Assembly (NCBI RefSeq): GCF_013408295.1
Contig: NZ_JACBYQ010000001.1
Location: 744,001 to 808,000 of the forward strand
Length of the DNA: 64,000 bases
Reading direction: 5' to 3'
From: Psychromicrobium silvestre
GTDB lineage: Bacteria > Actinomycetota > Actinomycetes > Actinomycetales > Micrococcaceae
The notes below the pieces were generated by a model that saw only the letters and a list, made by a program, of their open reading frames with translations, was not told where the DNA came from and did no database searches. A program made the translations under genes and the position numbers. This document shows positions 45,324 through 56,308 of this stretch, piece after piece. Every line of letters begins with the position of its first letter. Position 1 is the stretch's first letter.

Positions 45324-47882
45324 ATGCCAGGAATGAACCTCAGCCGGGATGAAGCGCGCGCCCGGGCTGAATTGATCAGTGTCGATTCATATCAGGTGCA
45401 ACTTGACCTGACTCGTGGCCCCAAGGTCTTTGGCTCCACCACCACCGTTCGATTCAGCGCTAGCGCCGGAGCTAGCAGCTTTATCGATGCCATCACGGAC
45501 ACGGTTCACTCGGTGACCCTCAATGGAGTAGAGCTGAATCCCGCCGAGGTCTCTGATGGTGTGTACATCAAGCTGCCCGAACTTGCTGAGCATAATGAGC
45601 TCACCGTGGTGGCCGATGCGCTCTACACCAACACGGGCGAGGGCCTGCACCGCTTCGTTGACCCGGTGGATCAGGAGGTCTACCTCTACAGCCAGTTCGA
45701 GGTTCCCGACTCCCGGCGGATGTTCGCGGTCTTTGAGCAACCCGATATCAAGGCCACCTTCAGTTTCACGGTCACCGCTCCGGCACATTGGGACGTGGTA
45801 TCCAATTCGCCCACTCCGGAGCCGGTCGATGATGGTTCCGATGCCGATGGCGGTGCCCGTAAAACCTGGACCTTTGAGCCCACACCCCGGCTCGCTTCTT
45901 ATGTCACGGCACTTATCGCCGGCCCCTATCAGAGCGTGCGCAGTGAGCTGACCAGTTCGGACGGCCGGGTCATTCCACTCGGCGTTTTCGCGCGCAAATC
46001 GCTCATGCAGTACCTGGATGCGGAGAACGTTTTTGCACTGACCCGGCAGGGTTTTGAGTTCTTCGAGCAGCAGTTCGGCACTCCGTACCCCTTCGCGAAG
46101 TATGATCAGCTCTTTGTCCCGGAATTCAATGCCGGGGCAATGGAAAACGCCGGTGCGGTGACCTTCTTGGAGAGCTACGTCTTCCGCTCCAAGGTCACCG
46201 AGGCGCTTGTTGAGCGCCGGGCGATCACCATTTTGCACGAGCTGGCACATATGTGGTTTGGCGATCTGGTCACCATGCGCTGGTGGAACGACCTCTGGCT
46301 CAATGAGTCCTTTGCCGAGTTCATGTCAACCCTCGCGGCAGCCGAAAACACCGAGTTCATCCAAGCCTGGACCACCTTTTCCTCGATGGAAAAGTCCTGG
46401 GCCTACCGGCAAGATCAGCTGCCCTCCACGCACCCCATTAAGGCAGAAATCCGCGATCTGGAAGATGTTCAGGTCAATTTCGATGGCATTACCTACGCTA
46501 AGGGAGCTTCCGTGCTTCGTCAGCTAGTGGCTTGGGTGGGCCAAGAGGAGTTCATGGCCGGGGTGCGCGCTTACTTCGCCAAGCATTCCTGGGGCAATAC
46601 CGAGCTGCGCGATCTACTCTCCGAGCTGGAGGTTTCCAGTGGCCGCGATCTGACGGCTTGGTCCGAACTCTGGCTAGAGACTGCGGGGGTGAACACATTA
46701 CGCGCCGAAATCACCGAAGAAGACGGGTTGATTACCGGTTTCACCATCCTGCAGTCCGCCGTCGCGGAGTATCCAACCATCCGTCCGCACCGCCTAGCGG
46801 TCGGCTTCTATGACCTTGATGGCAGTGGGAAGTTGGTTCGCACGCACCGGGAAGAGCTTGATGTTGACGGCGAACGCACCGAGGTTGCCGCACTGATCGG
46901 CCGTCCTCGGCCCGCGCTGGTGCTGCTCAACGACGACGACCTGGCCTATGCCAAGATTCGGCTGGATGAGAAGTCTCTGGTCACCGCCACCGCGCATCTG
47001 AAGGACTTCGCCGGCTCGCTGCCCCGCACCCTGGTCTGGGCTTCCGCCTGGGATGCCGCCCGCGACGGCGAAACTCCCGCCCGGGCGTACGTGGATCTGG
47101 TGTTGTCCAATATCGGCGCGGAGAGTGACTCCTCGGTGGTGTTGGTGCTGCTCCGTCAGTTGCAGACCACTCTGGGGCTCTATGTCGCCCCGGAAGCGCA
47201 GCACGAGACCAAGATCGCGGCGGCTGAGGGACTCTGGTCGCTCTTTACCGCGGCCGCTCCGGGCTCGGATTCGCAGTTGCAGTTCGTGAAGGCTTTCGCG
47301 CAGCTCGCGCAAAGCGCCGAGCATCTCGATATTGTGGCGGACCTGCTCAGTGGGAGTTACCGGCTGGAGGGCTTGGAGGTCGATCAGGATCTCCGTTGGG
47401 AGTTGCGCAGCTCTCTGGTGGCCGGTGGTCGTTTTACTCAGCCCGAGATCGATGCGGAGCTGGAGCGGGATCCAACCCAGACAGGTCAGCTCGCCGCGGC
47501 CGGTGCCTCGGCGGCTATTCCGACGGCGGCAGCTAAGCAGTCGGTCTGGGACGCTGTGGTGGTCAGCGGTGAGATGCCCAACGCGACTCAGCGGGCAGCG
47601 ATCACCGGTTTTGGCCGGGTCCACGATCTGGCCTTACTGAAACCGTTCGTGGCGCAGTATTTCGGTGCCATTCGGAAGATCTGGGCGGAGAAATCCCATG
47701 AGATCTCCTCCACCATCGTCACCGGGCTCTACCCTGTGCAGCTGGTTGAGCAGTCCACCCTGGATGCCACCGATGCTTTCCTGGCTGAGTTGGGTGAAGA
47801 GACTCCTGCCCTTCGCCGACTCGTGGTGGAAAGCCGCGACGGCGTGGTGCGGGCTTTGAAGGCGCAGGCCGCCGACCACTAA
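45324..47882 (+). CDS. pepN: Aminopeptidase N (M1 family)
   Basis: 852 residues from ATG 45324, with GAAAGG at the proper distance. GAMEN at 271-275, zinc motif His305-Glu306-L-A-His309 with Glu328 (NESFAEF) as third ligand, and the long C-terminal helical domain identify an actinobacterial PepN. Cytosolic removal of N-terminal amino acids. Divergent from the nadX-like gene. Ends at a terminator. Confidence 0.96.
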   Translation: MPGMNLSRDEARARAELISVDSYQVQLDLTRGPKVFGSTTTVRFSASAGASSFIDAITDTVHSVTLNGVELNPAEVSDGVYIKLPELAEHNELTVVADALYTNTGEGLHRFVDPVDQEVYLYSQFEVPDSRRMFAVFEQPDIKATFSFTVTAPAHWDVVSNSPTPEPVDDGSDADGGARKTWTFEPTPRLASYVTALIAGPYQSVRSELTSSDGRVIPLGVFARKSLMQYLDAENVFALTRQGFEFFEQQFGTPYPFAKYDQLFVPEFNAGAMENAGAVTFLESYVFRSKVTEALVERRAITILHELAHMWFGDLVTMRWWNDLWLNESFAEFMSTLAAAENTEFIQAWTTFSSMEKSWAYRQDQLPSTHPIKAEIRDLEDVQVNFDGITYAKGASVLRQLVAWVGQEEFMAGVRAYFAKHSWGNTELRDLLSELEVSSGRDLTAWSELWLETAGVNTLRAEITEEDGLITGFTILQSAVAEYPTIRPHRLAVGFYDLDGSGKLVRTHREELDVDGERTEVAALIGRPRPALVLLNDDDLAYAKIRLDEKSLVTATAHLKDFAGSLPRTLVWASAWDAARDGETPARAYVDLVLSNIGAESDSSVVLVLLRQLQTTLGLYVAPEAQHETKIAAAEGLWSLFTAAAPGSDSQLQFVKAFAQLAQSAEHLDIVADLLSGSYRLEGLEVDQDLRWELRSSLVAGGRFTQPEIDAELERDPTQTGQLAAAGASAAIPTAAAKQSVWDAVVVSGEMPNATQRAAITGFGRVHDLALLKPFVAQYFGAIRKIWAEKSHEISSTIVTGLYPVQLVEQSTLDATDAFLAELGEETPALRRLVVESRDGVVRALKAQAADH

Positions 47883-47897
47883 AGTCAGTCCACTAAT

Positions 47898-47932
47898 TGC
47901 GGCCAGTTGATCTGCTAGATCAACTGGCCGCA
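47898..47932 (+). terminator. Rho-independent terminator after pepN
   Basis: TGCGGCCAGTTGATC (47898-47912) and GATCAACTGGCCGCA (47918-47932): a perfect 15-bp stem with a five-base loop, followed by GTTTTACC. It insulates pepN from the biosynthetic operon that starts about 40 bases later. Confidence 0.95.
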
Positions 47933-47975
47933 GTTTTACCCTAGTTTCCCGGCGATAAGGCTTTAGACTATTGAA

Positions 47976-49319
47976 ATGACTAGAACCGACAGTCGGGGCA
48001 CCTCGGGGGCTCGTGCCGCCGTCGTGCCGGTCTCTGATCTGCTGGCTGCCGGCTTCCTGTTCTGCCGTACGCGCTGGGGCTATCGGTTTCGGAACCGCGC
48101 AGCTCTGCTGCGGTGGCAGCAACGCCGCCTCGATAAGATGCTGCAAGGGCGTGGGCTGCACTGGCGGGAGTTGCCGGTAATCGACAAGTCGATCGTCTTG
48201 GCTGATTTTGAGCGCTACAACTCGCAGGGCGTCAGCCTAGCGGAAGCGCTGGAGCTGGCGAAGGCCTCCGAACGTAGCCGAGATTTCCGGGCGGAGCTGG
48301 ACGGCCTGACGGTCGGCCTCTCCAGCGGAACCTCTGGCAGACACGGAGTCTTCCTGCTCAGTTCCACCGAACGCTTACTCTGGGCCGGAACCATCCTGGC
48401 TAGGGTTCTTGATAGCGCCGCCCTGCGCCAGATCCTCAGCCCCTGGAAACCCGCCCTACGGATAGCCTTCCTGCTGCGCGCCGACAGCAATCTCTACAAC
48501 ACCGTCCGTAGCAGCCGGGTCGCCTTCGATTTTTACGATCTTCTGGAACCGCTGGAAAGCCATTTCGAGAAGCTCAATAGCCGGCAAGCCGAGTTACTGA
48601 TTGGGCCAGCCTCGGTACTGCGTGCGCTTGCGGAAGCCCAGCTCTCGGGACGGCTCAGCTTGCGTCCGCGGAAGATCCTCTCGGTGGCTGAGGAGCTTGA
48701 TGAATCCGATGCCGAGTTCTTAGAGCGCTCCTTCGGAGTCCGGCCTGGGCAGGTTTATCAAGCCACCGAGGGGCTGCTGGGTTTCAGCTGCCGACTAGGC
48801 ACCCTGCATTTGAACGAGCAGCACGTCCATTTCGAACAAGAATGGCTGGATGCGGAGCGCAGCCGCTTTGTGCCAATCATTACCGATTTCACTAGAAGTA
48901 CCCAGCTCATGCTGCGTTACCGCCTTGACGATGTACTTCGGGTTGCCGAGCACCCCTGCCGCTGCGGCAATCCGGCGCTGGCGCTGGCTGGCGTGGATGG
49001 CCGAGCCGATGCGGTGTTGGTCTTTGACGGCGTCAACATCTTCCCCGACGTACTTAGGCGTGCGATGGCACTGGCGAGCACAGAGTTTCAGGACTGGTCG
49101 GTGGCACAGTCCGGTAAACGGTTGTTGATTGGCTTGCGCGCGCCTTCTCAAGAAGCCGAGGAACGAGTTCGGGATGAGTTGACGGCCCTCTTCGCCCGTT
49201 ATCGACTTTCTGTACCAAAACTAGAATTCGGCAGCTGGCAAGCACCAGCCCCAGGAGCCAAATTGCGCCGAATCCAGCTCCTGGCGGCCGACGCCCGGCG
49301 AGAGGGCTCTACAGCATGA
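47976..49319 (+). CDS. Adenylate-forming enzyme (PaaK / F390-synthetase-like), gene 1 of the operon
   Basis: 447 residues. SSGTSGRHG (116-124) is the ATP-binding P-loop of the ANL superfamily. YQATEGLLGFSC matches the adenine-binding (A5) region. RYRLDDVLRVAEHPCRCG ends with Cys328-x-Cys330-Gly, the PaaK-like zinc/Cys motif, and VDGRADAV the C-terminal hinge. This fits 'putative adenylate-forming enzyme' relatives of coenzyme F390 synthetase and phenylacetate-CoA ligase. It would activate a carboxylic acid as acyl-AMP. The substrate is unknown. Its TGA overlaps the next ATG (ATGA at 49316-49319). Confidence 0.82.
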   Translation: MTRTDSRGTSGARAAVVPVSDLLAAGFLFCRTRWGYRFRNRAALLRWQQRRLDKMLQGRGLHWRELPVIDKSIVLADFERYNSQGVSLAEALELAKASERSRDFRAELDGLTVGLSSGTSGRHGVFLLSSTERLLWAGTILARVLDSAALRQILSPWKPALRIAFLLRADSNLYNTVRSSRVAFDFYDLLEPLESHFEKLNSRQAELLIGPASVLRALAEAQLSGRLSLRPRKILSVAEELDESDAEFLERSFGVRPGQVYQATEGLLGFSCRLGTLHLNEQHVHFEQEWLDAERSRFVPIITDFTRSTQLMLRYRLDDVLRVAEHPCRCGNPALALAGVDGRADAVLVFDGVNIFPDVLRRAMALASTEFQDWSVAQSGKRLLIGLRAPSQEAEERVRDELTALFARYRLSVPKLEFGSWQAPAPGAKLRRIQLLAADARREGSTA

Positions 49320-51601
49320 ACACGGTGCTCGTGACCGGAGGTCGGTCCGCGGTGGCCGTCGAGCTGGCGCGGCACTTCTCCGCAGCCGGTTACCGGGTGA
49401 TTGCCGCCGAGAGTCAGGTCAATCTGCTCGCCGCGAGTAACTTCGTGGATCGGGCTTACCGGGTACCCGCTGCACGGTGGTACCCCAGGGAATTTGGCAC
49501 CGCCATTCAAGAGATTGCCCTCGAACACGGGGCCGAGCTCGTACTGCCCAGCTGCGAGGAAGTTTTCTGGTTGGCGGAAGTAGCCGCTCGGGATGGGTTC
49601 TCGACCTTAGCCGAGCTACTCTTCGCTGCACCCATCGGCACCTTGCGCACCCTGCATCACAAGGCCGAATTCATCTCGCTCTTGCAATCCCTGGGCGAGA
49701 AGACACCACGTACTAAGCTCCTTGAGTCGCAACAACAGTTCGCCGCGCTGGATCGGCAAAAACTCGGAAGCGGCGGATTGCGCTCCCCCGCCCTAGTTCT
49801 CAAACCAGCCTTTTCTCGCTTCGGCACGAGCGCCGTCGTTATCCCGGAAGGTGAGCCCCTCGACGCTGCTCCCCGAATCACCCACTTGCAGCCCTGGTTG
49901 GCTCAAGAATTCCTGGCTGGGGCAGAAATCTGCGTCACGGCGGCATTCCGTTCCGGGCAGTTGAGAGCCGTCTCGGTCTACAACCCCCGCTGGCGGGCCG
50001 GTGGCGCGCAATATGGCGCCGGTACCCTCTTCGAGCCCGTGGACCTCGATGAACCCACACATACCGAGGTCACGCGTTTGGTGACCAAGCTCGGCAGCGC
50101 CCTGCACTTCACCGGTTTCCTGAGCCTGGATTTGATTGATACTCCGGAGGGTCCGGTGGCCATCGAGTGCAATCCGAGACCCACCAGCGGGATACATCTG
50201 TTTTCGGAGAACTTCGCCTCGGCTCTGCTCTCCGACGACAAGCCACTCATCGCTCAAGGTCCCGCCCGACGACTCAGCTTGGCCGCGCTCCCTCAGGCTC
50301 TGTGCCATCCACTGCAATGGCAGCGTTCTGCTTCGGTGCTACGCGGGGCAGTGCCGCTCACTCAGCAGCTTCGCGTCGCGGGAAATCTATTAGGTAGCGC
50401 CTGGACCCACCACAGCTCCCCGCTGCAAGCCTCCACAGCTGATCTTCAATACGACGGCCTAGCCTCCGTCCCGGCAACCAAGGATGATCATTGCAACTAT
50501 CCAGCCGAGCCGGAATCTTCCGATGGCTGGGCAGCCAGTGCGCTAGCTACACTGCGTGAGCCCTCTTTGCTGGGTGGCCAAGGAATCGCAAATATTGACG
50601 TTGAAATGCGCGGACTGCGCAGTGCCGGACGGCTATTACCTCTCAGCCTGCCGTCGGTCGCCCAGGCTCAGGCTTATGTGGTCTCCCCCTACGCGCATTA
50701 CATTAGCTTCAGCAAGGTGGAACTCGATGAATTACACTCGCCGCTGCTTGAAGCGGCGTTGCGCCCGGCGATCGACCTGCTGGGCACTCTACTGCGCTGG
50801 GGCAGAGTGGATCAGGCCGCACTAGTCAATAATGCGCTGATCTCGACGAATCTGCACCCGCAGTTTAGTTGCGGAGAGCTTGCCGAGCTGACCGGAGTAG
50901 TGCGTCAAGCGCATCCCTCACTTGCGGTGGCCTGGCGGAGCGTGCACGGCAGGGATAGCGCCTTCCCCGAGCAGCTCAGATCACTCGGCTATCGGCTAAT
51001 TCCGGCTCGCAGCGTGCTTTTTATACCAACCGAAAATCGAACCTTCGAAAAACGTCGGGACTATCGGCGCGACCAAGCCCTCTTTGCGGCCAGTGGCTAT
51101 CACGTCCGAGAGCTGACCGAGCCAGATCCGGCGCAATGTCAGCGGCTAGCCGAGTTGTATCGAATGCTGTACATCGACAAATATTCCGAGCACAACCCTC
51201 AGTACGAACCAGCATTTATTGCGGCCAGCGCCGCTAACGGAATGTTGCGCTTCCTCGCCCTAGAGCGCGATGGCCAGCTTGATGCGGTGATCGGCTATTA
51301 CCTCGCCGAAGGGTATTTGACGGCACCCTTTGTTGGCTATGATCTGGGCAAAGAACAGCACCTTGGTCTCTATCGAATGCTGAATCTGCTGATCATCGAG
51401 ACTGCCTGGGAACACGGTGTCACGGTGCATGCCTCCTCCGGTGTGCCGGATTTCAAGAAGTCTCGCGGTGCCGAATCAGAGTTGGAGTACACCGCCGTCT
51501 ATACCCGGCATCTTCCGTTTCGTCAGAGACTAGCCTGGGCGGCCCTGGATGTTATTATAAATTCGATAGCGCAACCGTTGATCAAAAGATTTGGGCTGTG
51601 A
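49316..51601 (+). CDS. ATP-grasp ligase / acyltransferase fusion, gene 2 of the operon
   Basis: 761 residues. Part 1 (about 1-320) is ATP-grasp: VLVTGGRSAVAVELARHF (pre-ATP-grasp fold), VLKPAFSRFGTSAVV (ATP contact), and SLDLID...VAIECNPRPTSG with Asp272, Glu284 and Asn286 as probable Mg ligands. Part 2 (about 470-745) resembles GNAT/FemAB-type acyltransferases, with GYYLAEGYLTAPFVGYDL, YRMLNLLIIETAWEHG and VPDFKKSRGAESELEY. Linking a carboxylate-amine ligase to an acyl-transfer domain suggests amide or peptide bond formation followed by acylation. I do not recognise a characterised homologue. Confidence 0.8.
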   Translation: MNTVLVTGGRSAVAVELARHFSAAGYRVIAAESQVNLLAASNFVDRAYRVPAARWYPREFGTAIQEIALEHGAELVLPSCEEVFWLAEVAARDGFSTLAELLFAAPIGTLRTLHHKAEFISLLQSLGEKTPRTKLLESQQQFAALDRQKLGSGGLRSPALVLKPAFSRFGTSAVVIPEGEPLDAAPRITHLQPWLAQEFLAGAEICVTAAFRSGQLRAVSVYNPRWRAGGAQYGAGTLFEPVDLDEPTHTEVTRLVTKLGSALHFTGFLSLDLIDTPEGPVAIECNPRPTSGIHLFSENFASALLSDDKPLIAQGPARRLSLAALPQALCHPLQWQRSASVLRGAVPLTQQLRVAGNLLGSAWTHHSSPLQASTADLQYDGLASVPATKDDHCNYPAEPESSDGWAASALATLREPSLLGGQGIANIDVEMRGLRSAGRLLPLSLPSVAQAQAYVVSPYAHYISFSKVELDELHSPLLEAALRPAIDLLGTLLRWGRVDQAALVNNALISTNLHPQFSCGELAELTGVVRQAHPSLAVAWRSVHGRDSAFPEQLRSLGYRLIPARSVLFIPTENRTFEKRRDYRRDQALFAASGYHVRELTEPDPAQCQRLAELYRMLYIDKYSEHNPQYEPAFIAASAANGMLRFLALERDGQLDAVIGYYLAEGYLTAPFVGYDLGKEQHLGLYRMLNLLIIETAWEHGVTVHASSGVPDFKKSRGAESELEYTAVYTRHLPFRQRLAWAALDVIINSIAQPLIKRFGL

Positions 51602-51608
51602 GGAAATG

Positions 51609-52658
51609 ATGAGTTGCACCCACCGGATCGCCTCGAAGATCGCCGCAGTTGGCAGCTACCTGCCCGAAACTACTCGCAGCACCGAGGAAACGGAACAGCG
51701 GCTGCTGGAGCGCAATCCCGGGCTAAACCTGCCACTCGGTCTGATTCATCGACTGACCGGGGTCCGCCGAGTTCATCTGCGCCCCGATGGATGGCAGACC
51801 TCGGACCTGGCGGTGGCCGCCGCCCGGGACGCCCTATCTGGCCGGGATGAGGCGATTGAGTTATTAATTTTTGCCTCCGCCAGCCAGGATCTAATTGAAC
51901 CCGCTACCAGCCATATTGTCGCCGCTAAGCTCGGGCTCAGCTGCCCGGTAATGGATGTCAAAAATGCCTGCAATTCGGTGCTCAATGCGCTCCAGGTTGC
52001 CGATGCGCTAATCCGCACGGGTCAATACGGCCGAGTACTCATCGTCAGCGGTGAACAGCCCAGTCATGCGGTGCGCTGGGATCTGGAGAGCAAGGAACAG
52101 TTCCTGCGTTCCTTCCCCGGCTACACCATGAGCGACGGCGGCGCGGCAGTTATTTTGGAACGCACCGAGCTGCCGGCGCAACAGGATGGGCAGGCCAGCC
52201 CACCGATGACCCCACACCTGCTAGGAGGTCACTTTGTGGCCGAATCAAAACACTGGCAGGTTGGCACTCTGGGAACCGGAGGGTCAATGGATCCGCATGC
52301 CGCGCACGGCAGCTATTTCGATATGGACGGCGCAGCACTGCGCCAGGCTTTTCTGGATCTGGGGCCTGAGCCGGTGGCAAAGGGCCTACGGACCCTCGGG
52401 GTGGAGCTGGCGCAGCTTGATTTGCTGGCCATCCATCAGGTGGCTGCCCCGATGCTCGCACCGATCATGGAAACCCTGGGGATCTCCACCGCGCGTTGTG
52501 TGGATACCGTGGCCGAGCACGGCAATCTAGCCTCTGTGACCTTGCCACTGCAGCTTCAACTTGGCTGGAAGTCAGGGCAGCTACAGCCGGGCAGCCTGGT
52601 CGGGATGATCGGCTTGGCTGGTGGCATCTCACTGGGGTTGATGGTGGCTCGGCTATGA
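51609..52658 (+). CDS. 3-oxoacyl-ACP synthase III-like ketosynthase, gene 3 of the operon
   Basis: 349 residues from ATG 51609; GAGG five bases upstream fits better than for the ATG at 51606. Thiolase fold with intact Cys121 (VKNACNSVLNAL), His276 (AIHQVAAPML) and Asn306 (AEHGNLASVTLPL), the FabH triad. Also GLAGGISLGLM at the end. FabH-like enzymes condense an acyl thioester with malonyl-ACP; relatives such as OleA condense two acyl groups. No ACP gene is in the operon. Its TGA overlaps the P450 ATG (52655-52658). Confidence 0.87.
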   Translation: MSCTHRIASKIAAVGSYLPETTRSTEETEQRLLERNPGLNLPLGLIHRLTGVRRVHLRPDGWQTSDLAVAAARDALSGRDEAIELLIFASASQDLIEPATSHIVAAKLGLSCPVMDVKNACNSVLNALQVADALIRTGQYGRVLIVSGEQPSHAVRWDLESKEQFLRSFPGYTMSDGGAAVILERTELPAQQDGQASPPMTPHLLGGHFVAESKHWQVGTLGTGGSMDPHAAHGSYFDMDGAALRQAFLDLGPEPVAKGLRTLGVELAQLDLLAIHQVAAPMLAPIMETLGISTARCVDTVAEHGNLASVTLPLQLQLGWKSGQLQPGSLVGMIGLAGGISLGLMVARL

Positions 52659-53872
52659 CCCCCTCAGCCCGGGGACCCGCCGTCGAACGCTCTGCCTCAA
52701 ACTCAGCCCGACTCGCAGCTCGCTGGGAGTCGCGAGTGCAGCGCTCCGCGCATCCCTTGGTTTATCCTGCGCTACGGGCCGTTCCCGGCCCGCTTTTGCG
52801 GGTGCCCGGGCTCGGAGTGCTGGTGCGGGACCCCGAGTTGGTCCGCGAAGCTCTGATGCGACCGGAGGTATTCGCCAAGAACGGTCCCGGCACCTCCTCC
52901 GATCTCTGGACTCCTGTTCTGGGTGAGAAGGTTCTGCTAAACATGTCTGGGCAAGACCATCAGCTCTTGCGACGCAAGTTATCGCCGCTTTTTACCCCGG
53001 GTTTTGTTGATGTGTTGAGCCGTAAATCGCTGAGTTCCCCGCTCGCTGAGTTGGGTGAAAAACTCGCCTCCGGGGAACCCGTAGACCTAGTGCAACAGGC
53101 GCATTTGTTCTCTTCCGTGGTGATCTCACAGTTGGTGGGCCTTCCCGCCGAGCAGATCCACAACGATCGGCTCTATCAGAGCATTCATGAGATCAGCGGC
53201 ACCGTCAGCCTGCGCAAACTGAGCCTGGCCGAAGGAGAAGTTATCGCCGCCCGGCGCATTATGGGCGATTTGAGTGAGCACGCCACCTTGGCCTATCGAA
53301 ACGGTGATCCCGATACTGTGCCCGGCAGAATGCGTGAACTCGGACTTAGCGAGGAAGAGGCACTCGGTGCGGTGGGAGCCTTTGCGCTGACCGGAACCGA
53401 GACGCTCACCGCCTATCTTCCCCGGCTGATCGCCTTGCTGATCGACTCTGGCTGGCTGCCCCGCCTGGCCCGGGATCGATCCCTGCTGGAGCCTGCCATC
53501 GCTGAAGGTCTCCGAGTGACCACTCCGGTCTTGGTGATGCTGCGCCGGGTCCGGACGGCGGCTCAGCTCGGTAAGCATCATTTCGACGCCGGAGAGCGGC
53601 TAATCTTGCTGGGTTTTCGGATCAATCACGCCGCCGGGCGCTTCAATCCAGTGGCGAATCCCTCCGCCAAACTCAAGCAGCTCTGGTTTGGCGCTGGTGC
53701 GCACTTCTGTCTGGGGGCACCGCTGGCGATGGCACAGATCCGCTTGGTGCTGGAAACCCTGCTGGATGTTGCGGAGGAACTGGGACCCGAATCAACGCTG
53801 CGGATCCGTTCCCGGCAAACCGCCAGGAAAGTGCTCATTCCGGCGTATCGGCAACTGCGGGTCAGCCGATGA
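52655..53872 (+). CDS. Cytochrome P450, gene 4 of the operon
   Basis: 405 residues, typical for a soluble bacterial CYP. The I-helix oxygen-activation motif is Gly247-Thr248-Glu249-Thr250; the K-helix ExxR is Glu284-Gly-Leu-Arg287; the haem loop FGAGAHFCLG has the thiolate Cys352. No ferredoxin or reductase is in the operon, so electrons must come from elsewhere in the cell. Probably hydroxylates or desaturates the product. Four-base overlap with the next gene. Confidence 0.93.
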   Translation: MTPSARGPAVERSASNSARLAARWESRVQRSAHPLVYPALRAVPGPLLRVPGLGVLVRDPELVREALMRPEVFAKNGPGTSSDLWTPVLGEKVLLNMSGQDHQLLRRKLSPLFTPGFVDVLSRKSLSSPLAELGEKLASGEPVDLVQQAHLFSSVVISQLVGLPAEQIHNDRLYQSIHEISGTVSLRKLSLAEGEVIAARRIMGDLSEHATLAYRNGDPDTVPGRMRELGLSEEEALGAVGAFALTGTETLTAYLPRLIALLIDSGWLPRLARDRSLLEPAIAEGLRVTTPVLVMLRRVRTAAQLGKHHFDAGERLILLGFRINHAAGRFNPVANPSAKLKQLWFGAGAHFCLGAPLAMAQIRLVLETLLDVAEELGPESTLRIRSRQTARKVLIPAYRQLRVSR

Positions 53873-54783
53873 AGATCCTGGTCACCGGCGCCAGTGGGTT
53901 TGTCGGCTCCGCGATTGCCACCGCGTTGAGTGCAGAGGGACACCGGGTGATCGGCACCGGCCGGAGCACCCCGGGCTGGATAGCACCCCCTGGTTCAAGC
54001 TATGTGTATTGGGACCTATTTTCCGAGCCGCCTAAGGTGAGCCCTGACGCCGTCGTACATTGCGCAGCCTTAGTCTCCGACCAGATGGCTCTGGCAGCGG
54101 CACTCCGCGCCAATCGGGACGGCACCTTAGCGGTGCGCCGCAGCTTCCCGGATGCCCAAATGATCCATATCTCTTCCTCCAGCGTTTACGACTCCTTCCG
54201 CTCGCATCACTTCACCCCGGAGTCGGAAGGACCAGGGCGTAACTTGGCGGGAGCCTATGCCCGGTCCAAGGCGAGTGCGGAACTAGTCTTGGGGCCGTTC
54301 CCGGAAACCGTTATTCTGCGCCCACATGCGGTTTATGGTCCGGGCGACCGCACCCTCCTGCCCCGAATAGAAGCCGCCCTGCGGGGGAATGTTTTGTTAC
54401 TACCCAATGGCGGAAGGGCACGGCACTCACTGACACATATCGACAATCTAATTGCCGCTGTGCGCTGCGCGCTCTTCGGCTCGGTATCCGGAAGTTTCAA
54501 TATCACCGATGCGGAGCCGGTCCAACTGGCTGAAGCAATGATTGACTTACTAGCCCGACGTCGGCGACGCATCACGGTCAGAAGCGTGCCCTACCGCCTC
54601 GCTCAAGGACTTGGAGGTGCGGCCGAAGCAATGGGCGCCATCCTGGGCCCTCGGGAAGGCTCGCTGAGTCGCTATGCGGTGGCCCAACTCGCTTTCGAAC
54701 ACAGCTATCAACTGAGTGCCGCCAAGCAGCAACTGGGTTATCGTCCCAAACCGACTAGCTTTCTCGGAGCGGAACACTGGTAG
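53869..54783 (+). CDS. Extended SDR (NAD-dependent epimerase / 3beta-HSD-like), gene 5 of the operon
   Basis: 304 residues. TGASGFVGSAIATAL is the cofactor loop; ISSSSVYD and YARSKA provide the Ser-Tyr-Lys site; VILRPHAVYGPGDRTLLPRI is the extended-SDR substrate loop; HSLTHIDNLIAAV follows. Such enzymes reduce ketones (for example OleD in olefin synthesis) or epimerise sugars. After a ketosynthase, reduction of a 3-oxo product is the simplest guess. Last gene; no terminator recognised after it. Confidence 0.85.
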   Translation: MKILVTGASGFVGSAIATALSAEGHRVIGTGRSTPGWIAPPGSSYVYWDLFSEPPKVSPDAVVHCAALVSDQMALAAALRANRDGTLAVRRSFPDAQMIHISSSSVYDSFRSHHFTPESEGPGRNLAGAYARSKASAELVLGPFPETVILRPHAVYGPGDRTLLPRIEAALRGNVLLLPNGGRARHSLTHIDNLIAAVRCALFGSVSGSFNITDAEPVQLAEAMIDLLARRRRRITVRSVPYRLAQGLGGAAEAMGAILGPREGSLSRYAVAQLAFEHSYQLSAAKQQLGYRPKPTSFLGAEHW

Positions 54784-54840
54784 GCCTGTCCATCGCCGGA
54801 TCAGGGTCAGGATCAGAGTCGGGGTCGGTAGGATTTGAGC

Positions 54841-55308
54841 ATGAGCCTGATGGAACATCACTACGCCCTGCGCACTGAATGGACCGGAAACCGTGGAAGC
54901 GGCACCTCCGGTTATCGGGACTATGGGCGCGATCATCTGATCCGCTCGCTGGGCGTGCCGGATCTTTTCGGTTCGGCAGACGCAACCTTTCACGGCGATA
55001 AGGACCGCTGGAACCCGGAACTGCTGCTGCTGAGCGCGCTGAGTGAGTGCCATATGCTCTCCTACTTGCACGTGGCAGTGAACCACGGCGTGGTGGTTAC
55101 CGGCTATACCGACGAGGCTCAGGGAACCATGATCCTCAATTCCGACGGCAGCGGTCAGTTCAGTTCCGTTCTGCTACGGCCGCGGATCGAACTGGCTGAT
55201 CCGGCTCAGGCCGAGCTGGCTCTGAGCCTGCACCATGAAGCTTCGCAGAAGTGCTTCATTGCCCGGAGCGTCAATTTCCCGGTGGAGCACGAACCGAGCA
55301 TTGGCTAA
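54841..55308 (+). CDS. OsmC-family peroxiredoxin-like protein
   Basis: 155 residues from ATG 54841, with TAGGA seven bases upstream. LLLLSALSECHMLSYLH has the first conserved Cys and CFIARSVNFPV the second, the Ohr/OsmC pattern. Reduces organic hydroperoxides. The upstream gap holds a short run of GGATCAGGGTCA-like direct repeats. The gene converges on the next with only seven bases between stops. Confidence 0.85.
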   Translation: MSLMEHHYALRTEWTGNRGSGTSGYRDYGRDHLIRSLGVPDLFGSADATFHGDKDRWNPELLLLSALSECHMLSYLHVAVNHGVVVTGYTDEAQGTMILNSDGSGQFSSVLLRPRIELADPAQAELALSLHHEASQKCFIARSVNFPVEHEPSIG

Positions 55309-55315
55309 CCACACC

Positions 55316-56308
55316 TCAGCGCTTTAGAGCCTCAATCAGTGCGGTTTCCCGGCCTGCGCTTAAACCGGCGCGGCGCTCGCGGTCGAGGCCGCGGGAACGT
55401 TCATCGGCAAGAACTGCCTCAAGTGTTTCATCGAAGGGACGTAGCCTAAGCCCGGCCTGCCGCGCAGCTGCACCGTCGCGCTGCATCATGCCCTGGGCAT
55501 CTGTCGGAAGCCACAGCGGCAAGGAATCGGGCCCAGCCCAATAGTTCACGCCTTGATCCAGCAGCCAATCAGGGGCTGCGAGCGCTATCTCGCCTCGGTG
55601 TCCTGTAAGTTCGACGGCGGCACCCAGCAGAGTCTGGAATGGCACCTTTGGCCCTACCGCATCGAAGATTCCGGTCAGTCCAGACTCAAGGCTGTCAAGT
55701 AACCAGCTCGCCAGGTCGCGGGAGTCAATCACCTGAGTAAGAGCCCCCGGCAGGTCCGGTACCAGGACGGGCTCATTGTCTCTGGCGAAGCGCGCCGGCC
55801 AGTAACCGTAACGATCACTGGGATCGCCAGGACCGCAGATCAGGCCTGGTCTGGCGATGAGCACTTCGCCTGCCAGGGCGGAACGCAGGATGGTCTCACA
55901 CGCTACCTTTGCCTCGCCGTAGTGTTCGAGAAGGTCCTGACCTTCGACCCATTCGGGCAGCAACTCCTTGCTTTCGTCACCACCCGGCACGGCATGATCG
56001 GCATAGACCGATACGGTCGAAACGAAGGTCCAATGGGACACCCGATCTTGTAGAGCCGCAATCGCGGCGCTGACCTGGGTTGGCACCCGGGAGACATCTA
56101 TTGCAGCATCCCAGTGCGCCGTCGGATCCTGAAGTAGTTCCTGATAGGCGGCCTCGCCGTCGTCCCGGTTCGCGGTGTACAGCGCAACTCCTGCGGGGGT
56201 CGGGTGGGTACCCCTGGCGAGAGCGGTGACCCGATGGCCGCGTTTCACCGCCAGCTTGGCAAGAGTGCGGGAGAGAAACATCGTTCCGCCCAGGATCAGA
56301 ATGCGCAT
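55316..56308 (-). CDS. NAD-dependent epimerase/dehydratase-family protein
   Basis: 330 residues. GGTMFLSRTLAKLAVKRGH is a Rossmann loop; STVSVYADHAVPGG, YGEAKVACE (Tyr-x-x-x-Lys) and LIARPGLICGPGDPSDRYGYW follow. Resembles the atypical/isoflavone-reductase-like 'reductase' subgroup common in Micrococcaceae. Substrate unknown. Divergent from mscS. Confidence 0.8.
   Translation of the reverse strand: MRILILGGTMFLSRTLAKLAVKRGHRVTALARGTHPTPAGVALYTANRDDGEAAYQELLQDPTAHWDAAIDVSRVPTQVSAAIAALQDRVSHWTFVSTVSVYADHAVPGGDESKELLPEWVEGQDLLEHYGEAKVACETILRSALAGEVLIARPGLICGPGDPSDRYGYWPARFARDNEPVLVPDLPGALTQVIDSRDLASWLLDSLESGLTGIFDAVGPKVPFQTLLGAAVELTGHRGEIALAAPDWLLDQGVNYWAGPDSLPLWLPTDAQGMMQRDGAAARQAGLRLRPFDETLEAVLADERSRGLDRERRAGLSAGRETALIEALKR

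Follow-up and report, generated by a model that had tools for sequence, protein, structure and literature searches.

The window analysed here, a stretch of 64,000 nucleotides from Psychromicrobium silvestre to whose positions all coordinates refer, carries five intact plus-strand open reading frames (ORFs; 47976-54783), tightly packed between pepN and osmC. They encode an adenylate-forming (ANL) enzyme of the family TIGR02304, an ATP-grasp ligase fused to a double-GNAT domain, a β-ketoacyl-ACP synthase III (KAS III), a cytochrome P450 and an extended short-chain dehydrogenase/reductase (SDR). By sequence, this operon is neither a standard TIGR02304 cluster with its metallo-β-lactamase-fold (MBL) hydrolase nor an ole cluster, but an actinobacterial variant in which the MBL is absent, a P450 is present and the KAS has been replaced. 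Gene content, its conservation, the position of the KAS in another clade, a Glu-Pro signature and the predicted folds are observed directly; the operon may make an amino-acid-modified, oxidised α-branched lipid, a reading to which we give a probability of roughly 0.48.

The variant stands out among 140 loci with an ANL gene (138 distinct, L102/L216 and L079/L215 being duplicate places): 121 of them (119 distinct) have an MBL gene, nine a P450 gene and none both, a domain being called present, here and in the 52-locus counts below, if at least 75% of it was covered. No MBL domain match of any size was found in the nine P450-type loci, nor was there any in the window between 40000 and 64000. Three of the nine belong to the window's genus, five to Microbacteriaceae (four of these to Herbiconiux) and one, L246, to the same order. 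The Microbacteriaceae have the order ANL-SDR-KAS-P450, without ATP-grasp or GNAT, and in L246 the SDR and KAS genes are separated by two extra ones, the first for a GT21-like glycosyltransferase and the other an ORF of 525 residues that matches no family. Ten loci fall short of these thresholds for both MBL and P450; in L089, L101 and L231 the MBL is split over two matches, L236 has MBL fragments, L059 lies at a contig edge and L061 has its P450 in two halves, so that L103, L111, L247 and L042 remain. The quick ANL tree gathers the P450 type into one clade (SH-aLRT 99) inside a 24-sequence clade (99) shared with proteobacterial and acidobacterial MBL-type enzymes. On these comparisons, the simplest reading would be one event, in which an MBL-type cluster acquired the P450, lost its MBL and had its FabH-like KAS replaced by one of the OleA type; the direction of the KAS replacement is a reading and no proof, since the root of the tree was not inferred. 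Elsewhere in the window genome (G000:C2:774095-774751) there is an AttM-like metallo-hydrolase, which scores 111 bits against the MBL profile of the cluster and could in principle act in trans.

The KAS of gene 3, its residues numbered from the ATG at 51609, has the triad Cys121, His276 and Asn306, that is, the Cys-His-Asn of OleA. In the alignment with OleA (3row), its Glu97-Pro98 falls on Glu117-Pro, the number 117 being derived by a hand count from the two OleA chains of 344 and 358 residues, which are offset by 14. This essential glutamate has been described as a mechanistic feature that only OleA homologues have. Glu-Pro occupies that column in 9/9 P450-type and 5/5 Ole-linked KASs; the residue there is Ile, Leu or Met in all 111 MBL-type sequences (109 distinct), Ile or Leu in the five from loci with neither MBL nor P450, and Thr in eight of eight FabH proteins. 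It should be noted that the Ole-linked loci were chosen by their match to OleD, none exceeding the cut-off of the OleD model, and that an OleC-like enzyme was confirmed in L290, L291 and L293, the other two (L292 and L295) lying outside this check. The careful tree of 33 sequences, which is unrooted, places the P450-type and the five Ole-linked KASs on one side of a branch (100/95), with L292/L293 nearest to the P450 type (98/96), and holding the P450-type KASs with those of the MBL type is rejected (p-AU 1.6e-5). In L293 the KAS has as neighbours an OleD-like SDR and an OleC-like enzyme, the latter at 541 bits (cut-off 900). Plain membership of the operon in the MBL-type cluster was rejected because the MBL is absent and the KAS belongs to another clade.

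The activating enzyme leads in a different direction. Gene 1 passes the curated NCBIfam cut-off for TIGR02304, remains under the threshold of the general Pfam model for AMP-binding enzymes and matches PaaK structures in a profile search; its P-loop, Glu265, Arg316, Asp319 and Lys429 are all in place, and the OleC model is absent from its NCBIfam matches. A preliminary description of this DNA, made from the sequence alone, had drawn a parallel with the Ole enzymes; it is stronger than could then be seen for the KAS, which has the OleA catalytic glutamate and groups with Ole-linked homologues, and weaker for the ANL enzyme, which resembles PaaK and F390 synthetase, not OleC. An F390 synthetase annotation is also met in another setting, a type II fatty acid synthesis cluster considered for ladderane lipids (PMC2649909). 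As a separate observation, Cys272, His278, Cys328 and Cys330 (window 48789-48965) are invariant in 140/140 ANL sequences (138 distinct) and probably form a structural metal site.

The ANL enzyme, the SDR type, the ATP-grasp ligase and the GNAT domain of the window belong, by their sequence matches, to a conserved cluster present in at least five phyla. A tblastn search of plasmids with gene 2 gave 19 records, eight of which were inspected. Two of these, both from Deinococcus, have the ATP-grasp and GNAT pair only; in the other six—from Paraburkholderia, Rhizobium, Shinella, Roseateles, Paenibacillus and Pontibacillus—the ATP-grasp gene stands near genes for a KAS III, an SDR, an MBL-fold hydrolase and a TIGR02304-type enzyme, a GNAT being found in five of the six (none in Pontibacillus) and a Rieske protein in Rhizobium, Shinella and Roseateles. 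A contig scan with the ANL alignment, considered for the best 80 of 562 confirmed relatives as ranked by similarity, covered Bacillota, Pseudomonadota, Cyanobacteriota, Acidobacteriota, Actinomycetota and others. Because those 80 loci are the best by similarity, all loci over the TIGR02304 cut-off were also taken from four genome samples: 32/200 genomes in the class of G297 (a Paenibacillus genome), 4/249 in the phylum of G298, 15/297 in the window's order and 3/246 in its class. The samples overlap and include the centres chosen as carriers (G297, G298 and the window genome), the distinct loci numbering 52. A KAS is present in 49 of them, an SDR in 50, an MBL in 46, a P450 in three, an ATP-grasp in 27, a GNAT in 18 and a Rieske protein in four. 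The misses are partly threshold effects (in L231 the MBL and the ATP-grasp are each split over two matches, and in L240 the contig ends within the KAS); L236 yields fragments only and L247 the ANL alone. As controls, twenty stretches from 20 of these genomes, at a distance of 200-300 kb, were free of ANL, KAS, SDR and MBL matches above 50 bits; two of them gave a weak P450 match of 56-60 bits. The MBL itself has the motif HxHxDH in 121/121 sequences, its nearest named relatives being N-acyl-homoserine lactone (AHL) lactonases. No paper describing this cluster was found in a search that left out most subscription papers, MIBiG and antiSMASH.

Two further forms of the cluster deserve mention. 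Seven loci from Bacilli (L210-L212, L214, L217, L220 and L257) have, in the stretches searched, only the four-gene core SDR-MBL-ANL-KAS and, with about 39-41% guanine plus cytosine (GC) and genomes of 1.8-2.2 Mb, offer a minimal system for bench work. Six GNAT-free cores (L066, L070, L080, L082, L086 and L246) have glycosyltransferase-like neighbours, assigned to GT21 by Pfam in L246 and by eye in the others, as though glycosylation could take the place of aminoacylation on the same core.

Gene 2 was taken in the preliminary description for a ligase joined to an acyltransferase; the second half is now better regarded as probably an aminoacyl-tRNA-dependent transferase, as its predicted fold suggests, and probably not as an acyl-CoA acyltransferase. 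It comprises two GNAT domains in the FemX arrangement, and its best structural matches found by Foldseek are tRNA-dependent transferases of the Fem/MprF/VlmA fold, with 10-16% identity to the solved ones. An FK motif is found in 36/36 sequences and, judged by motif, may correspond to the Phe328-Lys329 of DhpH-C, in which the catalytic Lys follows the Phe (PMC12945691). Searches of PDB sequences gave no credible relative for the GNAT profile and weak ATP-grasp matches only for that of the ATP-grasp half, in which Glu284, Asn286 and Arg288 are intact. On two Deinococcus plasmids (L030 and L037) the ATP-grasp and GNAT pair occurs without KAS, MBL or ANL matches in the stretches searched; since it is found there alone, the pair may be a portable module.

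As for the last two genes, gene 4 is the sole PF00067 match found in the window genome, and its heme ligand Cys352 and a GTET motif are shared by 9/9 P450-type sequences; the best curated match of gene 5 is OleD, and its Tyr130 and Lys134 are intact and conserved.

We infer the reactions, their order and the product from these families. The OleA-type KAS III would join two acyl-CoAs head to head, non-decarboxylatively, and free a 2-alkyl-3-oxo acid, the 3-oxo group of which would be reduced by the OleD-like SDR; the TIGR02304 enzyme would activate the free acid as an adenylate, which could be passed to a nucleophile or closed to a lactone, and the P450 would hydroxylate the chain. The ATP-grasp half of gene 2 would then couple an amino compound to a carboxylate and the double-GNAT half transfer an amino acid from aminoacyl-tRNA. 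The product would likely be an amino-acid-modified α-branched β-hydroxy lipid or β-lactone. With regard to its origin, the operon would derive from the widespread MBL-type cluster with a FabH-like KAS and a metallo-hydrolase; this hydrolase may free the acid from a thioester and would become dispensable once a free-acid-releasing OleA-type KAS had replaced the FabH-like one. A wider version is possible, if on the doubtful side: the operon would be a hybrid lipid pathway in which, besides this replacement, activation is PaaK-like and one fused protein adds amino acids by both ATP-grasp and tRNA chemistry, the TIGR02304 core being an independently assembled, undescribed four-step counterpart of oleABCD in at least five phyla.

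Several observations weigh against this scheme. The SDR lies far under the OleD cut-off, and in a quick SDR tree its branch is long and joins neither the Ole SDRs nor those of the other P450-type loci; it may therefore be a separate recruit, and its failure to group with the latter speaks against a simple vertical story. The OleA-like model NF006720 (PRK09258; cut-off 285) is missed by the window KAS at 148.6 bits, three Ole-linked KASs scoring 425-452, and likewise by the L293 KAS beside an OleC-like enzyme (146.8). In L103 and L111, if not in more loci, MBL and P450 are both missing and the KAS is still not of the OleA type, which the proposed role of the MBL leaves unexplained; the P450 type, being one clade and perhaps one event, gives the tight association of its features an effective sample of one. 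Outside the genus, none of the six P450-type loci contains an ATP-grasp or GNAT in the stretches searched, which places aminoacylation outside the core of the variant. Among named proteins, the MBL is closest to AHL lactonases and not to thioesterases. For gene 2, the Foldseek TM-scores of the GNAT half reach only about 0.5, the list also contains, at rank 17, a GNAT whose function is unknown and, from rank 21 on, entries of the tandem GNAT acetyltransferase type, and the ATP-grasp fold match leaves the substrate unfixed.

The pathway would be one to a β-lactone if the TIGR02304 enzyme acted as OleC, closing a β-lactone from the 2-alkyl-3-hydroxy acid, with the MBL as an analogue of OleB; the loss of the MBL would then leave the lactone to be hydroxylated and aminoacylated later. 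The four enzyme kinds of the MBL-type core do parallel OleA/B/C/D, and the MBL is lactonase-like with its motif intact throughout. We consider this rather unlikely, as the ANL enzyme resembles PaaK and F390 synthetase and has no OleC model in its NCBIfam list, and the core KAS of the MBL-type clusters is without the OleA glutamate. F390 synthetase and PaaK, furthermore, transfer to an external acceptor. In favour of this pathway, ole clusters without oleB yield β-lactones, one of them pairing OleA with a P450 (PMC7064751). The KAS might, on the other hand, make an ordinary 3-oxoacyl thioester or ester, so that the operon would yield an N-acyl amino acid lipid that is not branched head to head and Glu97 would be a relic of ancestry. 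The PRK09258 score, far from those of the Ole-linked KASs, is in favour of this, as is the best phmmer match in PDB, the 3-oxoacyl-ACP synthase 3 of 4ryb, 4 bits ahead of OleA; with Glu-Pro kept in all nine P450-type KASs and the glutamate described as unique to OleA homologues, however, it seems unlikely.

The proposed transfer from aminoacyl-tRNA would fall away if the GNAT half were acyl-CoA-dependent and acylated an amino acid joined by the ATP-grasp half. That is quite improbable: it agrees with the PF13480 (Acetyltransf_6) match on residues 579-704 and with the acetyltransferase-type entries in the Foldseek list, but the tRNA-dependent transferases are the best structural matches, the FK motif is invariant and Tyr stands in 29/29 sequences at the last position of what we take to be the usual CoA loop motif. 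That the operon should be a non-functional remnant on its way to loss is hardly credible, even though such decay is seen within the genus. All five genes, in the same order and between pepN and osmC, occur in three of seven genus genomes (the window genome, G005 and G002), pepN and osmC being adjacent in the other four (G001, G003, G004 and G006); the G002 copy (L039, 8372-15168) keeps open frames for ANL, KAS and P450, its ATP-grasp/GNAT and SDR genes being broken up among several frames. The window and G005 copies are intact, and their comparison gives, for all five genes, non-synonymous differences per site (pN) of 0.14-0.31 and synonymous ones (pS) of 0.73-0.77, the synonymous sites being saturated, which means purifying selection. 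This, together with the finding that two congeners have the cassette in the same position and gene order, indicates that the operon is more than a series of chance ORFs. When 59 relatives were searched with gene 2, three genomes, the window genome among them, turned out to have it.

The features of the operon are collected in Table 1. The five ORFs and their three ATGA overlaps (49316-49319, 52655-52658 and 53869-53872) were found where the preliminary description had put them, as were its intact catalytic residues (ANL P-loop, ATP-grasp Glu284/Asn286, the KAS triad and P450 Cys352). The gap of eight bases that it reported before the KAS gene is really 4 or 7 bases, with the stop at 51601 and the start at ATG 51606 or 51609. 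Its strong pepN terminator is borne out as a hairpin (z -7.4; 0/200 shuffles as good) and less so as a terminator, for it has a short T run and is missing from the output of the consensus terminator scan; that scan gave no sigma-70-like promoter in 47600-55400 either. A foreign island is not clearly supported by composition, the GC content of 0.60-0.62 equalling that of pepN and osmC; at third codon positions the cassette (0.64-0.69) lies somewhat below these two genes (0.72-0.73).

Table 1 Features of the five-gene operon and its upstream boundary in the window
Feature	Position	Strand	Details
Gene 1, ANL enzyme, TIGR02304 "F390 synthetase-related", PaaK-like	47976..49319	+	373.7 bits, cut-off 251.9
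Gene 2, N-terminal half, ATP-grasp ligase, PRK06849-like	49316..50467	+	
Gene 2, C-terminal half, double-GNAT, predicted aminoacyl-tRNA-dependent transferase	50510..51601	+	Candidate catalytic FK, Phe713-Lys714
Gene 3, KAS III of OleA clade	51606..52658	+	Glu97 codon 51897-51899; Cys121 codon 51969-51971
Gene 4, cytochrome P450	52655..53872	+	PF00067, 37.9 bits
Gene 5, extended SDR, best curated match OleD	53869..54783	+	NF042422, 111.9 bits, cut-off 580
Hairpin 3' of pepN, upstream cassette boundary	47895..47935	+	Inverted repeat; RNA fold -32.3 kcal/mol

The operon thus joins an OleA-type KAS with the activating enzyme of a different, widespread and apparently undescribed cluster, and on this basis an amino-acid-modified lipid of a new kind can be predicted. 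Owing to the glutamate difference, an existing coloured OleA assay can serve to test the pathway. If true, the proposal would define a new class of carrier-free, tRNA-using lipid pathways and explain the absence of the hydrolase in one clade.

The preliminary description had seen here a small biosynthetic pathway distinct from polyketide synthases (PKS), nonribosomal peptide synthetases (NRPS) and oleABCD, and this view is supported, the Ole enzymes being the right comparison. The families are also found together elsewhere, all five in the three genus genomes and ANL, SDR, KAS and P450 in six further actinobacteria. There is, as it stated, no carrier protein, transporter or regulator among the five genes, and PKS and NRPS are ruled out, no carrier protein or module being found among them. 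With PaaK and coenzyme F390 synthetase, gene 1 shares the fold family, but it belongs to a different curated family and stands beside a KAS and an SDR. The predicted double-GNAT fold and candidate FK motif of gene 2 resemble those of FemX, MprF, VlmA, DhpH-C and Sbb17/Sba18, the aminoacyl-tRNA-dependent GNAT-fold transferases, from which it differs in being fused to an ATP-grasp ligase within a fatty-chain pathway. The MBL-type TIGR02304 cluster has in common with the window an ANL enzyme over the cut-off, an OleD-like SDR, a KAS III beside the ANL gene and the ATP-grasp and GNAT families; the window differs by the missing MBL, the KAS of another clade and the fusion of ATP-grasp and GNAT, and its P450 stands where many proteobacterial copies have a Rieske oxygenase-like gene.

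With oleABCD and oleACD, finally, the operon shares an OleA-clade KAS with Glu-Pro and an adenylating enzyme, and its SDR has OleD as best curated match. It differs from them by having no OleC, by the added ATP-grasp ligase and predicted tRNA-dependent transferase, and by KAS and SDR scores under the curated cut-offs. The ordinary oleABCD pathway is ruled out, no OleC match being found among the five genes; the best score of the OleC model in the window genome was 128 bits, outside the operon (cut-off 900), the ole-like loci scoring 306-560, all below that cut-off. Like the β-lactone ole clusters, the operon has no OleB-type α/β-hydrolase, no match to this family being found in a search confined to the five genes; a Nocardia β-lactone is reportedly made with paired OleA homologues. 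The absence of OleC places the operon outside the ole family of clusters, and by sequence it appears to work like the first half of an ole cluster.
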